DNA of 64,000 nucleotides from Alphaproteobacteria bacterium (lineage in GTDB: Bacteria > Pseudomonadota > Alphaproteobacteria > Micropepsales > Micropepsaceae): assembly GCA_019241645.1 (NCBI GenBank), contig JAFAWQ010000003.1, forward strand, positions 1 to 64,000, written 5' to 3'. Each line of letters starts with the position of its first letter. The stretch's first letter is position 1. The notes beneath the pieces were generated by a model. That model did no database searches, was not told the origin of the DNA, and was given only the letters and a program-made list of their open reading frames with translations. Below, piece after piece: positions 4,036-18,964 of this stretch. The position numbers and the translations under genes were made by a program.

Positions 4036-4548
4036 ATGACCGTTGATGCTAAGAGCCTGAACGCCAAGGTTGATCAAGAGCTGGAGCAACTTTCGGATAA
4101 CCGTGTTGTCTCGCATATTCTGGCACTTCGTTCGGAGCCGGCGATCACGATCCGCCGCTGGGACTACGGACGAGAGGACGAGCAATATCCTTGTTGGACG
4201 GTGCTTCGCCATCCAGCTTCAAACACAGGCATCGCGTACTGCGAGCGAGGCTTCGGCCCACGGTCACCTTGGGGACTCATCATTCTCGATGGTGACGAAG
4301 GGGACATGTCTATTGGTATGGATTGCTCCTGGTACAAAAGATTTCTGCACGCGTTTTTTGAATCTTGGGCGGCGACGGATCTATCCATCTGGAGAGTTTT
4401 CAAGACGGAGTCGGCTGCAGGAGAGAGTCACGCGATCTCCGGGGAAGGCGATTGGGATGTGACGTGGTCGAAAGTGATGGCTCTTCGAGAATCCCACCCG
4501 GCGAATCGGTACGATTGCCGGACGAGCATCGATTACGAACGGGAGTGA
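4036..4548 (+). CDS. Hypothetical protein
   Basis: I do not recognise this 170-residue protein. It begins MTVDAKSLNAKVDQELEQL and has no signal peptide or membrane segment. It is rich in Trp and acidic residues: RRWDYGRED, DGDEGDMSIGMDCSWYKRF, ISGEGDWDVTW. The regular codon use and globular composition suggest a real cytosolic protein. GC is lower than in the flanking genes, which hints at acquisition. It lies between convergent-looking minus genes and shares no obvious operon. Confidence 0.6.
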   Translation: MTVDAKSLNAKVDQELEQLSDNRVVSHILALRSEPAITIRRWDYGREDEQYPCWTVLRHPASNTGIAYCERGFGPRSPWGLIILDGDEGDMSIGMDCSWYKRFLHAFFESWAATDLSIWRVFKTESAAGESHAISGEGDWDVTWSKVMALRESHPANRYDCRTSIDYERE

Positions 4549-4610
4549 TTCTTCGGCGCGTGGGTGCGCCGGATGGGTGGCCGCCTCGGCGGGCGGTTAT
4601 TCAATAAAAG

Positions 4611-5468
4611 TTAGAGTTCAAGCGTAACACGATTCTCGATTGCGCCGATGTGATCGATTTCTACCCGCACCACCTCGCCAGCCTTGAGAAACTTTGGCGG
4701 CTTCATGGCGAAGCCGACGCCGGCCGGCGTGCCGGTGTAGATCACGTCGCCCGGCTCCAATGTCATCGCCTGACTGATCCAGGCAATCTGCGCGAACACG
4801 TCGAACACCAGATGCCGCGTATTCGATTCCTGCCGCTTCTCGCCGTTGACGAAGCAGCGAACGCCGAGCGCATGCGGATCGCCGAGCCCGTCCGGCGTCA
4901 CGATCCACGGCCCGAACGGCGCGTGCGTGTCGAAGGATTTGCCGAGCACGAACTGGCCGCTGGCGAATTGCCAGTCGCGCACCGAAACATCGTTGCCGGC
5001 GCAGTAACCGAACACGACCGAGGCTGCCTCTTCCTTCCGCACATGGCGGCAGCGCTTGCCGACGATGAACACCAACTCGGCTTCATAATCCACCTGACTG
5101 GATACCTTCGGAATCAGAACCTGATCGTACGGCCCGTTCACCGCGCTCGGCATTTTCGAGAACCAGGTCTGCACCGTCGGCTTCTCGCGTCCGCTTTCCG
5201 CAATGTGGTCGGCATAGTTGAGACCGATGGCCATGATCTTCTGCGGCCGCGGCACCGGCGCCAGAAGATGCACGTCAGCCAGCGGCACATCGGCCTGCGC
5301 CTGCGAGGGCAGCGCGCGCACGGTCTGCTCCACTTGGGGCCACATGCGGATGAGGTCGCGCATGTCGCTCGGCAGGTCCGGCGCGGCGCGGGCGAAGTCG
5401 ATCAGTGCATCGCCGATTACAATGCCGATGCTTTCCCGCCCGCCGCTCTCGAATGTTGCGAGTTTCAT
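4611..5468 (-). CDS. Fumarylacetoacetate hydrolase family protein
   Basis: This is an FAH-superfamily enzyme, which cleaves or isomerises diketo-acid compounds in aromatic or sugar-acid catabolism with a divalent metal. The product is 285 residues. The metal-binding Glu/Glu/Asp signature appears as DYEAELVFIVGKR, followed by GYCAGNDVSVRDWQ and GDVIYTGTPAGVGF. The start was set to the ATG at 5468 (MKLATFESGG). The upstream extension of the frame runs into the dispersed repeat at 5481-5611. The exact substrate cannot be read from sequence. Confidence 0.88.
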   Translation of the reverse strand: MKLATFESGGRESIGIVIGDALIDFARAAPDLPSDMRDLIRMWPQVEQTVRALPSQAQADVPLADVHLLAPVPRPQKIMAIGLNYADHIAESGREKPTVQTWFSKMPSAVNGPYDQVLIPKVSSQVDYEAELVFIVGKRCRHVRKEEAASVVFGYCAGNDVSVRDWQFASGQFVLGKSFDTHAPFGPWIVTPDGLGDPHALGVRCFVNGEKRQESNTRHLVFDVFAQIAWISQAMTLEPGDVIYTGTPAGVGFAMKPPKFLKAGEVVRVEIDHIGAIENRVTLEL

Positions 5469-14973: not shown

Positions 14974-16149
14974 ATGAATCCGCGCCACTTCGACAAACGA
15001 TCCAGCCTCGCTTTCATCGTCGCTTTCGGCATCGTGAGCCTGTTTGCCGACGCGGCCTATGAAGGGATGCGCGGCATCACGGGGCCATATCTGGCGCTGC
15101 TTGGCGCCAGCGGCACGGCGGTGGGACTCATCGCCGGATCGGGTGAATTGTTCGGCTATGTGCTGCGATTGGCCTCGGGCCGCATCGCGAGCCGCACCGG
15201 CGCCTATTGGGCCATCGCGCTCACAGGCTACGTAGTGCAGATGGCGGCGGTGCCGGCCATGGCGCTTGCCGGTGCGTGGTGGGCCGCCGCGCTTCTCATC
15301 ATTCTGGAGCGCACCGGCAAGGCGATCCGCAATCCCGCAGCCAATTTCATGATGAGCCGCGCGGGCGAGCAGATCGGCCAGGGGTGGGCCTTCGGTCTGC
15401 ACGAGGCGCTGGATCAGGCCGGCGCGCTGGCGGGGCCGCTGATCACCGCGCTGGTGCTGGCGCATCACGGACAATACGGCCACGCATTTGCCTGGCTCGG
15501 AGTGCCGGCAGCGCTGACATTGGTATCGGTGTTCGCGCTGCGCCTGCGCTTTCCTTACGCCGGCGAACTGCCACGGCCGGCGGGCGACGCAAAAGAAGGT
15601 GGCGGACTCTCGCGCGCCTTCTGGCTGTACGCAGCAAGTGCCGCGCTGGTGGCGTTCGGGTTCGCCGACTGGCCACTGATCGCCTACCGCTTGCAAGAGG
15701 CCCACGTGGTGAGCCAGCCCACGGTTCCGCTCCTCTACGCGGCGGCGATGGCTGCCTCCGGCGCAAGCGCGCTGGCGCTGGGCAAACTGTTCGATGCGCG
15801 CGGCTTCATCGCGTTGCTGCCGGGGATTCTGTTGGCCGCCTTGGCCGCACCACTCGCCTTTCTCGGGGGATCGACAGCCGCAATCGCCGGCGCTCTATGC
15901 TGGGGTGCGGCGCTGGGTGTGGAGAATTCGGTGCTGACGGCCGGCGTGGCGCACCTGGTGTCGGACACATCGCGCGCGCGGGCCTACGGCATCTTCTCCG
16001 CCACCTTCGGCATCGCGTGGTTTCTTGGCAGCGCGCTCATGGGCGCGCTTTACGACATCTCCATCCCGCTGCTGGTGATCGTTTCCATCGCAGCAGAATT
16101 TGCAGCGATCATTCCCTTTGTGATGGCAACGAAACTGACGGGGGACTGA
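14974..16149 (+). CDS. MFS transporter
   Basis: This inner-membrane major facilitator superfamily protein has 391 residues and about 12 hydrophobic helices. The first half has the segment GPYLALLGASGTAVGLIAGSG and the A-loop-like SGRIASRTG. A central cytosolic loop (GELPRPAGDAKEGGG) separates the two six-helix bundles. The substrate cannot be inferred. It is coupled to the preceding small membrane protein and ends 8 bases from the convergent TMEM175-like gene. Confidence 0.87.
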   Translation: MNPRHFDKRSSLAFIVAFGIVSLFADAAYEGMRGITGPYLALLGASGTAVGLIAGSGELFGYVLRLASGRIASRTGAYWAIALTGYVVQMAAVPAMALAGAWWAAALLIILERTGKAIRNPAANFMMSRAGEQIGQGWAFGLHEALDQAGALAGPLITALVLAHHGQYGHAFAWLGVPAALTLVSVFALRLRFPYAGELPRPAGDAKEGGGLSRAFWLYAASAALVAFGFADWPLIAYRLQEAHVVSQPTVPLLYAAAMAASGASALALGKLFDARGFIALLPGILLAALAAPLAFLGGSTAAIAGALCWGAALGVENSVLTAGVAHLVSDTSRARAYGIFSATFGIAWFLGSALMGALYDISIPLLVIVSIAAEFAAIIPFVMATKLTGD

Positions 16150-16157
16150 CAGTCCCG

Positions 16158-16730
16158 CTATGGCTGCGGGTTCTCGATGCGCCGGTCGGGCACAAACCAG
16201 GCGAGCGAAACGCCGACGTAAATCGCAATCGCCATCCACGGCCGCACGAAGGCGAGCGCGATGGCGGCGACGTACAGCGCCAGAGAAATAAGCCCCTTGC
16301 GGTCAGAACCCACTGCCGCCGCCAGCTTCGACTGCGGCCCGTTACAGGCGACCAGCGCCCGTTCCAGCAGCATGTAGCCGACGGCAGCCATCGCCAGCAC
16401 CGCGCCGTAAGCGGCGGTCGGCAGCGGCTGAAAGCCGGTTTCGTCGATCCATCGGATCACGAACGGCACAAGCGACATCCAGAACAGCAGCAACAGATTC
16501 GCCCACAGCACCGCGCCGTTCACCTTCTCCGAGGCGTGCAGCATGTGGTGATGGTTGTTCCAGAAGATGCCGACATTCACGAAGCTCAGCAGATAGGTCA
16601 GCAGAATGGGCAGGCTGGCGAGCAGCGCCGCCGGCGTGGCTTCGTGCGGCGTTTTGATCTCCAGCACCATGATGGTGATGATGATGGCCATCACGCCATC
16701 GGTGAACGCTTCCAGCCGCTGCGTACCCAT
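16158..16730 (-). CDS. TMEM175/DUF1211 family potassium channel-like protein
   Basis: This integral membrane protein has 190 residues. The first helix carries the family signature RLEAFTDGVMAIIITIMVLE, corresponding to the FSDG pore motif of TMEM175 potassium channels. A HHH motif follows in NVGIFWNNHHHMLHA. About six hydrophobic helices are visible, ending SLAWFVPDRRIENPQP. Bacterial members conduct potassium weakly or have unknown roles. It is transcribed alone from the minus strand. Confidence 0.85.
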   Translation of the reverse strand: MGTQRLEAFTDGVMAIIITIMVLEIKTPHEATPAALLASLPILLTYLLSFVNVGIFWNNHHHMLHASEKVNGAVLWANLLLLFWMSLVPFVIRWIDETGFQPLPTAAYGAVLAMAAVGYMLLERALVACNGPQSKLAAAVGSDRKGLISLALYVAAIALAFVRPWMAIAIYVGVSLAWFVPDRRIENPQP

Positions 16731-16841
16731 GTGCCGTCCACTGTCCTTGGCGGACAGTGGGCACGATTTACGCGATTCGCCAGAGGCAGCGCCAACTCCA
16801 CACGCGGGAGGAATGAACGATCTGGGTTCACCTCAACGGCG

Positions 16842-16876
16842 AAGAAAAAGGAGCGGCAGGCAAAACCGCCGCTCCT
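16842..16876 (-). terminator. Intrinsic terminator of the hemerythrin-repeat gene
   Basis: A perfect 9-bp stem (aggagcggc at 16849-16857 pairing with gccgctcct at 16868-16876) has a 10-base loop. Read on the minus strand it is followed by TTTTTCTTC. It lies 24 bases beyond the stop of the minus-strand hemerythrin gene, which is the normal arrangement for a Rho-independent terminator. Confidence 0.8.
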
Positions 16877-16899
16877 GCAATTGTTGCAATTGTTGGCGC

Positions 16900-18372
16900 C
16901 TAGCGGTTTTCCCAACCGCGCCGCGAGGCCTCGGAATGTCCGCGGGAATCGCCGAACCAGCCACCCTGGCCGCGTCCGCCGCCACCGCGAGAGCCACGGC
17001 GATCGTCATCGTCGTCGTCGCGTCTGCCGCGGGACGAAGAACCGCCCCGCGAGGAGGACCGGCTTTCCCACCCCCGCTCGGCTGCTTCGGAATGTCCCTC
17101 GGAATCGCCGAACCAGCCGCCTTGGCCTCTTCCGCCGCCACCGCCGCCACCACCGCCGCGGCCGCCACGCGATCCACGACGATCGTCGTCGTCATCATCG
17201 CGCCTGCTCCGCGAGCCTCCGCGGGAGGAAGATGATCGGCCTTCCCAGCCCCGTTCAGACGCTTCGGAATGGCCTTCGGGATCACCGTACCAGCCGCTGC
17301 CTTCATGATCGGAGCGTTCCCATCCCCGGCGTGAAGCTTGCGAATGGCCGCGGGAGTCCCCGTACCAGCCGCTGCCTTCGTGATCGGACCGTTCCCAACC
17401 CCGCCGCGAGGCCTCGGAATGCCCTTCGGAGTCGCCGAACCAGCCGCCCTGTCCACGGCCGCCGCGCGAGCCGCGACCGTCGTCGTCATCGTCTTCATAG
17501 CGCCGGCCGCGTGAGGAGCCGCCGCGGGATCTTGCGGCTTGCGAGTGGCCCTCGGAATCACCGAACCAGCCTCCTTGACCGCGTCCGCCACCGCCCCCAC
17601 GCGAGCCGCGACGATCATCGTCGTCGTCGCTCATGAAGCGGCCGCGTTCATCGCGGTCGTTTCCGCCGCCGCGCGAGGAGCGCGAGCCGCGGTTGTCGTC
17701 GTCGTCGTCGCTCATGAAGCGACCTTGGTCGTCTCTTTCTCTATAGTTTGAGCCTCTGGGCATGCGAAAGTCCTCCTGTCTCATTTGAGATGTTAGCGAT
17801 TTTGGCTTGGGAGGCTCGAGGTTGTTCTCGTCGATGCGGGACTCGAATTCCTGTTTGCGTTCCTGCAGCCTCTTTCCCAGCTCCTTCATGTCGACGCCTC
17901 CGCTGTTCGCTTTGGCGAAGATGCCCGTTCGCGGCTTCTCCTCTTCGCCCACATGGTGCTTGATGTATTCGGAGAGCACCTTCATCTTGGCGTCGTAAAA
18001 CTCGTCATCGGGCGAGCCTGCGATAAGGTCGGAGATGAGCATTTTGGCGCCGTCGTGCTCGACCTGGGCCTCGTCCATGATGTCTTCCTCGACTCCTTTT
18101 TCGCGGCACGCGGGATAGAAAATCTGCTCTTCCAGCAGCGTATGGACGATCAGCGCCTTGCAAATCTGCTTGGCGAGTTTGCTTTTTTCGTCAGAGGAAC
18201 TTGCCTTTTCATACTGCGCGAACAGTGCTTCGACTGTTCGATGATCGGCCTTCAGCAGATCGTCGGCGCTCTGAGCTGCCTGCATGCCGGTTTTGGAAGA
18301 TGCATCTGCGGCGTCGGTTTGTGTTTTCTTCGATGCATTCGTCGCTGATTTCTGATTTGCCTTTTGAGGCAT
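16900..18372 (-). CDS. Hemerythrin (HHE) domain protein with six GW(F/Y)GD repeats and Asp/RGG tail
   Basis: This 490-residue protein has an N-terminal linker (1-35) and then a hemerythrin-like four-helix domain (about 36-170) with ligand motifs KADHRTVEALF, HTLLEEQIFYP, VEHDGAK and YIKHHVGEEE. This domain probably binds a di-iron centre sensing oxygen or NO. The C-terminal 290 residues are low complexity. They include two GRFMSDDDDD units, RGS/RGG tracts, several runs of 5-6 Asp and six copies of a unit like GGWFGDSEGHSEASRRGWE. The repeat unit resembles short stress-protein modules seen in Rhizobiales. A good ribosome site (gggagaacgcc) precedes the ATG. Confidence 0.85.
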   Translation of the reverse strand: MPQKANQKSATNASKKTQTDAADASSKTGMQAAQSADDLLKADHRTVEALFAQYEKASSSDEKSKLAKQICKALIVHTLLEEQIFYPACREKGVEEDIMDEAQVEHDGAKMLISDLIAGSPDDEFYDAKMKVLSEYIKHHVGEEEKPRTGIFAKANSGGVDMKELGKRLQERKQEFESRIDENNLEPPKPKSLTSQMRQEDFRMPRGSNYRERDDQGRFMSDDDDDNRGSRSSRGGGNDRDERGRFMSDDDDDRRGSRGGGGGRGQGGWFGDSEGHSQAARSRGGSSRGRRYEDDDDDGRGSRGGRGQGGWFGDSEGHSEASRRGWERSDHEGSGWYGDSRGHSQASRRGWERSDHEGSGWYGDPEGHSEASERGWEGRSSSSRGGSRSRRDDDDDDRRGSRGGRGGGGGGGGGRGQGGWFGDSEGHSEAAERGWESRSSSRGGSSSRGRRDDDDDDRRGSRGGGGRGQGGWFGDSRGHSEASRRGWENR

Positions 18373-18655
18373 GGCGTTCTCCCGGGGAATGGTCGCGCGT
18401 GAAGTGTTGATTTAATGAACGGCGTGCATCGCCGTTCCGATCTGCGTCATAAAGATTCTGCAATTCGACCAGCGTTGCCGGCATGGCCGGCGATGGATTG
18501 CGATGGCGGCTTCGACCGCGGCGGCACGCGATTGCGTCTCAAGCGATGCGAGCAGGCATGCGGTGATCCCGCATCGATCGAATCTGTTTCGACGACGCCG
18601 CGTTCGCCCGCGGCGAGATGCATTCTATGTTAGCTTTTTGAAGCGTGAGCGCTTC
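18373..18655. other. Intergenic region upstream of the hemerythrin gene
   Basis: No convincing gene is seen here. It contains the likely minus-strand promoter of the hemerythrin gene. A 7-bp inverted repeat, gaacggc-N7-gccgttc (18417-18437), lies about 45 bases before that start and could be an operator. I looked for the alphaproteobacterial general-stress promoter (GGAAC, 16-17 bases, CGTT). I found GGAAC on the minus strand but only a 12-base gap to CGTT. Confidence 0.4.
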
Positions 18656-18964
18656 CTACTGCAGAGAGTGATGTGCCGCATGGTCCTCGCTCGCTCGAGC
18701 GGCCGTGAGCGCGGCTGGAAGCTCGGCTGCAGTGCGCGGGTAAAGGACTGCGCGTCCCTTGTCAGTGATGATCGCGCCGAGCGGGCAATATTCGATCAAT
18801 TGTTCGCTTTCGACTTCGTCCAGATCGTCTTGTGACAAACCGTCGGCAGGAAAACAGCGCGCAAGCGATCGCCACCTTCCATCGCTGCACTTCCTCAGCG
18901 GCTCGAGATTGGCCGCAATCAGCGCAAGGAGCTGCCCCTTGCGCAAATCCCAGTAGGCGATCAT
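18656..18964 (-). CDS. Small hypothetical protein
   Basis: This 102-residue protein is not recognised. It begins MIAYWDLRKGQLLALIAANL, and its middle resembles a small helical/winged domain (QDDLDEVESEQLIEY, GAIITDKGRAVLYP). A strong ribosome site, gaggggctgtc, sits directly before the ATG, which is the main reason to accept it. The C-terminus is Ala-rich. It lies alone in a gene-poor stretch between the hemerythrin gene and the outer-membrane protein gene. Confidence 0.55.
   Translation of the reverse strand: MIAYWDLRKGQLLALIAANLEPLRKCSDGRWRSLARCFPADGLSQDDLDEVESEQLIEYCPLGAIITDKGRAVLYPRTAAELPAALTAARASEDHAAHHSLQ

Follow-up and report, generated by a model that had tools for sequence, protein, structure and literature searches.

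Gene Organization at the Locus

The window, i.e., the whole stretch of 64,000 nucleotides that was analyzed, contains on its reverse strand an open reading frame with an ATG start (16,900-18,372; ORF list and Pfam) for a 490-residue protein, in which an HHE hemerythrin domain (residues 37-146; 17,935-18,264) is followed by a repetitive tail. The start codon is preceded by a GGGAG Shine-Dalgarno (SD)-like site (18,379-18,383, duplex energy -7.4). At the joint of the two parts (17,777-17,761, same strand), an internal SD sequence AGGAGG (17,772-17,777, duplex energy -10.3) lies 8 nt 5' of an in-frame ATG at residue 204 (17,761-17,763). From the sequence and the set-wide start-signal tests described below, this ATG is proposed as the start of a free tail, a putative second product of 287 residues encoded by 16,900-17,763 and predicted to be disordered. 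Directly 3' of the stop codon, on the same strand, there is a terminator-like hairpin with a T run (16,849-16,876; 11 pairs, 8 of them G-C), which is a consensus match rather than proof of termination. No sigma-70-like promoter was found in 16,600-18,800. A perfect inverted repeat, GAACGGCG / CGCCGTTC with a 5-nt spacer, occupies 18,417-18,437, some 45 nt 5' of the start of the full-length frame, and is a possible operator. Long open reading frames on the other strand or in other frames (e.g., 809 aa at 15,207-17,636) were disregarded, since it is the HHE-tail frame that homologs retain.

The Hemerythrin Domain

The domain matches the Pfam hemerythrin model PF01814 (E 4.6e-12, 47 bits against a cut-off of 25.3), and all iron-ligand positions are occupied (H44, H77, E81, H106, H140, and E144). 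AlphaFold2, run on a 34-row alignment, modeled the HHE bundle with high confidence (mean pLDDT 87.7). The best solved match to the fold model was 6q09, an iron-bound Rv2633c homolog (Foldseek E 5e-5), which was also the best solved relative by sequence (E 9e-4); however, the identity is only about 20%, and the matched chain of 162-170 residues has no tail. The ligand pattern and the fold model thus support the prediction of a di-iron-type hemerythrin and, together with the Pfam match and the 287-residue tail, bear out the description of the gene in an earlier sequence-only reading as a di-iron-type HHE domain joined to a long low-complexity tail.

Among 41 distinct HHE-tail fusions, the ligand pattern is retained in 37; in the other four (L064, L081, L115, and L118) the iron ligands are lost, and the tail and the internal start are retained. 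Ligand loss was also noted by eye in L183 and in L061, where the N-terminal part looks like a degenerate HHE domain. The genome that contains the window encodes a second, tailless HHE protein (L002, G000:C53:14386-14877), 34% identical.

The nearest NCBIfam model is NF053874, built for the Pseudomonas aeruginosa HHE persister protein PA2171. It covers residues 36-181 of the window protein (E 1.1e-19), but the score of 70.8 bits is below the cut-off of 190, and the model, 157 positions long, includes no repeat tail. It is matched by 37 of 78 members of the tail family at E values up to 1.

Composition and Repeats of the Tail

From residue 204 onward the protein is rich in Gly, Arg, Ser, and Asp, with 54 Arg, no Lys, and no Cys, a net charge of -5, and a GRAVY index of -1.96; it is predicted to be disordered (pLDDT mostly <50). 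The nine RGG motifs lie in a predicted disordered tract, as expected of an RGG-type protein, yet the net charge is negative. The tail contains five Asp runs of 5-6 residues and two RDxxGRFMSDDDDD units, at residues 213-226 (17,695-17,736) and 240-253 (17,614-17,655), so that the acidic, GRFMSDDDDD, and RGG elements listed in the sequence-only reading were all recovered. The six GW(F/Y)GD units listed there are present as well, at residues 268 (17,518-17,571), 310 (17,392-17,445), 335 (17,317-17,370), 360 (17,242-17,295), 419 (17,065-17,118), and 471 (16,909-16,962), but the first of them is degenerate in its second half. The motif GW(F/Y)GDxxGHS was counted six times, and none of 5000 shuffles of the tail's own letters produced even one.

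The units share 61-89% of their DNA sequence, and codons for the same residue differ in 88 of 205 comparisons. Recent duplication by assembly is therefore an unlikely source of the repeats and of the tail length: silent positions differ, and two related genomes of the same genus carry the same architecture with other unit numbers (three and four GW units).

Distribution of the Tail

In the genus of the window, three of 69 genomes contain the tail at clear scores (the window's own, G013, and G075), always fused to HHE; tailless HHE relatives also exist within the genus. Weak tail matches in two further genomes, G071 and G086 (E 0.003-0.005), looked like TonB receptors by eye and were not counted. 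In the class sample, the tail was found in 4 of 385 genomes, one of which, G133, has a free-standing tail gene as well as an HHE fusion. Scanning named genomes yielded 79 tail loci from the best 80 of 90 confirmed stretches, labeled mostly as Alphaproteobacteria, with some Gammaproteobacteria and one Burkholderiales; a few metagenome bins with other labels may be misbinned. Five of these loci are cut at the 5' end, and L112 contains a masked run. L107 (of L025), L078 (of L026), and L099 (of L096) were dropped as duplicates or near-duplicates; A4 excludes L099 and L112.

The domains attached to the tail, which the sequence-only reading had suggested listing, fall mainly into three groups. First, 40 of the 79 loci (from the best 80 of 90 stretches) are HHE-fused according to a local HHE profile. 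Second, in L083 (2659-4104; bin labeled Armatimonadetes) the tail with its internal start follows a DUF892 (YciE/YciF ferritin-like) domain (E 1.1e-32); this is the one DUF892 fusion among 78 scanned members, and its attribution to L083 comes from inspection of the sequence. Third, apart from L061 and the truncated or masked loci, the remaining tails have no recognized N-terminal domain, and many are free-standing; an upstream open frame in some of them (e.g., L053, L113, and L114) may be due to chance. In the flanks of the loci examined, no separate HHE gene was seen directly upstream of a tail gene. In L060 (bin labeled Rickettsiales) a free-standing tail gene is followed directly by a separate HHE gene (4379-4891), L052 has a second HHE-like frame downstream of the tail, and L079 has an HHE-like frame on the other strand.

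A held-out scan of 398 genomes gave no new fusion except those of the window and G133; the stops seen inside some HHE matches fall in tailless HHE genes. In the plasmid search, 34 records matched via the HHE part, the tail being hidden by the low-complexity filter; the tail is present in two of the eight records examined out of these 34, from Beijerinckia (L176) and Paracoccus sp. MA (L183). Later examples from outside the original set are thus only two plasmid fusions, of which one has a weak SD site. Phage origin was considered and rejected, as the tail patterns had no confirmed relative in viral contigs. Of two fusion copies whose annotation was examined, one is annotated as a hemerythrin protein and the other as a hypothetical protein.

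The HHE domains of the fusions are often just about 50-60% identical to that of the window. In a tree of 43 fused and 41 tailless HHE rows, the fusion label needs four changes, compared to 28 with shuffled labels, and hence the fusion is an old, mostly inherited arrangement, retained across deep divergence, and not the result of 41 independent origins.

Translation Start Signals at the Junction

An in-frame ATG is present near the HHE/tail joint in all 41 distinct fusions. It coincides with the segment where free-standing tail proteins begin, and these open with the same MPR/MAR...RDxxGRF segment as is found at the joint of the fusions. Start signals were compared with synonymous shuffles that preserve the protein and use each gene's own codons. 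Under a uniform rule for the best junction SD site, the mean energy over the 41 fusions was -8.34, as opposed to -5.69 ± 0.39 in the shuffles, and none of 2000 shuffles reached the observed mean. Energies at or below -6.4 were found in 39 of 41 fusions (null mean 16.6, null maximum 27), and in 11 of 121 cases for the other in-frame Met codons. In 40 loci, third-position GC was 0.42 immediately 3' of the junction ATG, whereas bins at least 20 codons away ranged within 0.71-0.83 (one upstream bin, at 0.76, is an exception among the distant bins), and the 40-nt folding energy was -4.1 at the junction ATG versus -11.6 to -14.5 at distances of 60 nt and more; none of 200 synonymous shuffles was as unstructured. 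Both the SD and the weak-structure signals persisted in a thinned set of 30 representatives with <70% HHE identity (0 of 1000 shuffles each). In 27 of the 30, by a hand count made without a control, one of A, P, S, and G occupies residue 2 after the junction Met. The same SD and Met are found at the joint of the DUF892 fusion.

Hence, the signals of in-frame internal initiation, namely an SD sequence and an ATG with relaxed local structure, are conserved collectively across the fusion set, whose rows are related by descent. Where the joint held several Met codons, the one used for the structure, GC, and thinned tests was chosen by hand. L080 was omitted from the GC and folding test, because it has no clear junction, and retained in the junction, SD, and thinned sets. 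The fraction of shuffles reaching the observed SD strength ranged from 0.0075 to 0.74 for single genes and was 0.25 for the window; the case for the internal start therefore rests on the whole set; on its own, the SD site of the window is nothing out of the ordinary for its amino acids. A strong SD site (-9.5) also precedes a further in-frame Met of the window protein, at residue 162 in the HHE part. The junction SD site is weak in L056 (-5.8) and in the Beijerinckia plasmid fusion (-4.9), and in L080 none is clear.

The strongest alternative is a single-product fusion, in which the 490-residue protein alone is of importance and the SD and Met at the joint are relics of two former genes or by-products of a charged linker and of low-structure codons. 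The linkers often hold Q-E or K-E, which favors GGAG in GC-rich genes, the per-gene shuffle fractions are mostly not small, and L080 and L176 lack a strong SD site. Nevertheless, we consider this explanation unlikely: the SD strength, weak structure, and AT-rich joint codons collectively exceed synonymous shuffles, the first two also in the thinned rows, and, given the deep divergence of the HHE domains and the few changes of the fusion label on the tree, relic start signals should have decayed.

Relation of the Tail to KGG Proteins

The GW unit has the same register as the KGG repeat of YciG (DPQRASEAGKKGGQ in YciG vs. DPEGHSEASRRGWE in the GW unit, compared by eye): both are short hydrophilic repeats with an aromatic residue, D, S-E-A, two basic residues, and G. 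They differ in that the GW units have Trp where KGG has its second G, and in that the tail adds Asp/RGG blocks and GRFMSDDDD units and is not matched by the Pfam KGG model. This model (PF10685) did not match the window protein at E values up to 5, nor the place of the gene in its own genome, and KGG was absent among the best 25 of 30 families listed for 78 tail members. We therefore use the term KGG-like for the tail instead of assigning it to the KGG family. When 2959 background ORFs were scored with a GW-unit profile, the top match was a genuine KGG protein; its gene, in L086, lies approximately 2 kb from a free-standing tail gene, on the downstream side. When the GW profile was compared with shuffles of each KGG protein, 8 of 11 scored at 0 to 9 of 2000, several of them near-copies of each other, and the other three at 23, 36 (weaker), and 398 (signal absent) of 2000. 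The reverse test, with a KGG profile on the tails, was weak: three of ten tails were at or under 11 of 1000.

In E. coli, yciG directly precedes yciF, which is followed by yciE. Tail genes occur near DUF892 genes: DUF892 was the commonest family among neighboring ORFs (8 of 114, then BON with 5), these being raw counts without a background rate. The set of 114 comprises 109 of 143 ORFs and five added by hand (one from L060, one from L086, three from L183); the 34 ORFs left out were dropped by eye (the majority overlap with a fused ORF, at least four do not), and because of these manual steps the figure of 8 of 114 is not fully mechanical. The DUF892-like assignments in L074, L077, L093, L094, L112, and L114 were made by eye, as the Pfam tally gives no member names. 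No DUF892 neighbor was seen at the window gene itself. In Paracoccus sp. MA, the tail gene is located near genes annotated as ferritin-like and ECF sigma factor.

The EcfG general stress box of Alphaproteobacteria has the form GGAAC-N15-18-CGTT. It was found upstream of 3 of 76 tail genes and in 34 of 1520 random windows, which is about equal, and not at the window gene; hence control by the general stress sigma factor gains no support.

A Putative Nested Gene for Two Stress-Type Proteins

The frames of the HHE domain and the tail stay joined, and the start signals exceed what the protein sequence needs. For these reasons our preferred explanation, held with moderate confidence, is a nested stress-type gene with two products, HHE-tail and free tail, in which the tail is YciG-like and protective co-assembly is the likely role; neither the internal start nor the connection with YciG/YciF had been noticed in the sequence-only reading, whose description of the architecture stands. 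Judging from the start signals, one such gene probably yields two proteins, a joined one and one that consists of just the tail. Ribosomes starting at 18,372 would produce the 490-residue protein, a di-iron-type HHE bundle tethered to the disordered repeat tail, and ribosomes starting at the internal ATG (17,763) would use the same frame, and probably also the same mRNA, to produce the 287-residue tail, whose synthesis in vivo is likely. The motif, the neighbors, and the disorder suggest that the tail may serve as a stress protectant in the manner of the hydrophilic KGG-type stress protein YciG; in other genomes it is a separate gene often near DUF892 genes. The free tail and the tail anchored to a helical domain would be produced together at a built-in ratio and could co-assemble to protect starved, oxidized, or drying cells. 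The free tail would form the bulk, and HHE-tail, which with moderate confidence we regard as the anchored, iron-bearing or ribosome-touching form, would add an iron center and/or a ribosome-binding surface like that reported for PA2171. PA2171 reportedly binds ribosomes and FtsZ and represses translation (PMC13041383); another paper lists PA2171 and the P. aeruginosa KGG protein PA2146 as predicted neighborhood partners (PMC9262955).

A further proposal, which we put forward only tentatively, is that of a translationally programmed two-component assembly: a self-associating, disordered KGG-like scaffold, a share of which bears a di-iron HHE domain by virtue of the upstream in-frame start, so that the internal ribosome site would set the client-to-scaffold ratio of a stress-protective condensate. 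Such an arrangement would recur with the unrelated YciF domain and persist after loss of the iron site.

Rv2633c has catalase-like activity, and the HHE domain could be a similar peroxide- or NO-consuming di-iron protein with a passive tail that just maintains solubility under stress. The best solved relative by sequence and fold, 6q09, is iron-bound, and the ligands are retained in most fusions, but four fusions have lost them, tails without HHE are common, and a passive tag would not require its own start signals, so we regard this explanation as rather improbable. Least convincing is the proposal of the sequence-only reading that an O2/NO sensor switches an RNA-binding or condensing tail by its redox state: the full ligand set of the window protein and the predicted disorder of a tail rich in Arg, Gly, Trp, Tyr, and Asp agree with it, but the tail is used without HHE and with DUF892, and redox control of its behavior is unsupported and would sit awkwardly with the 4 of 41 fusions that have lost iron ligands.

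Taken separately, the elements of this gene are of familiar kinds: in-frame starts within genes, HHE domains, and KGG proteins have all been described before. The short form of CheA is an example of an in-frame internal translation start, and genes of this kind, like the one described here, have one frame with two starts and an N-terminally truncated product with its own SD site. What sets the present case apart is that the short product has a counterpart family of free-standing genes elsewhere and that the start is found again behind more than one kind of N-terminal domain (HHE and DUF892). Titles and opening parts of abstracts in the open PMC literature contained no mention of an HHE-tail fusion or of an internal start in one. 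What appears to be new with respect to this literature is a disordered stress-type tail with its own start preserved inside HHE and DUF892 fusions. Use of the internal start would mean that these genes encode an unannotated stress-type protein in addition. The HHE and DUF892 fusions give the poorly understood YciG/KGG and YciF proteins a physical link to helical iron-type domains. Altering the internal start would separate the two products, a simple genetic handle with which one could ask whether survival depends on how much of the disordered protein is free and how much is anchored.

Other Genes Near the Tail Loci

Five free-standing tail genes are directly preceded by a gene for a BON-domain (OsmY-like) protein (L072, 3222-3734; L086, 3202-3747; L089, 3059-3748; L091, 3221-3748; L105, 583-1110), and the BON-domain proteins of these loci have a charged Arg/Asp/Tyr tract at their own N-terminus. 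On the Paracoccus plasmid (L183, 1586-2401), the ECF sigma factor gene and an 80-residue ORF, which at a guess encodes a NepR-type anti-sigma factor, lie between the ferritin-like and the tail genes. Finally, a small protein with GGSHEQHVKAGQQSHKN repeats, perhaps another KGG-like type, is encoded near a short tail ORF in L111 (3213-3581).
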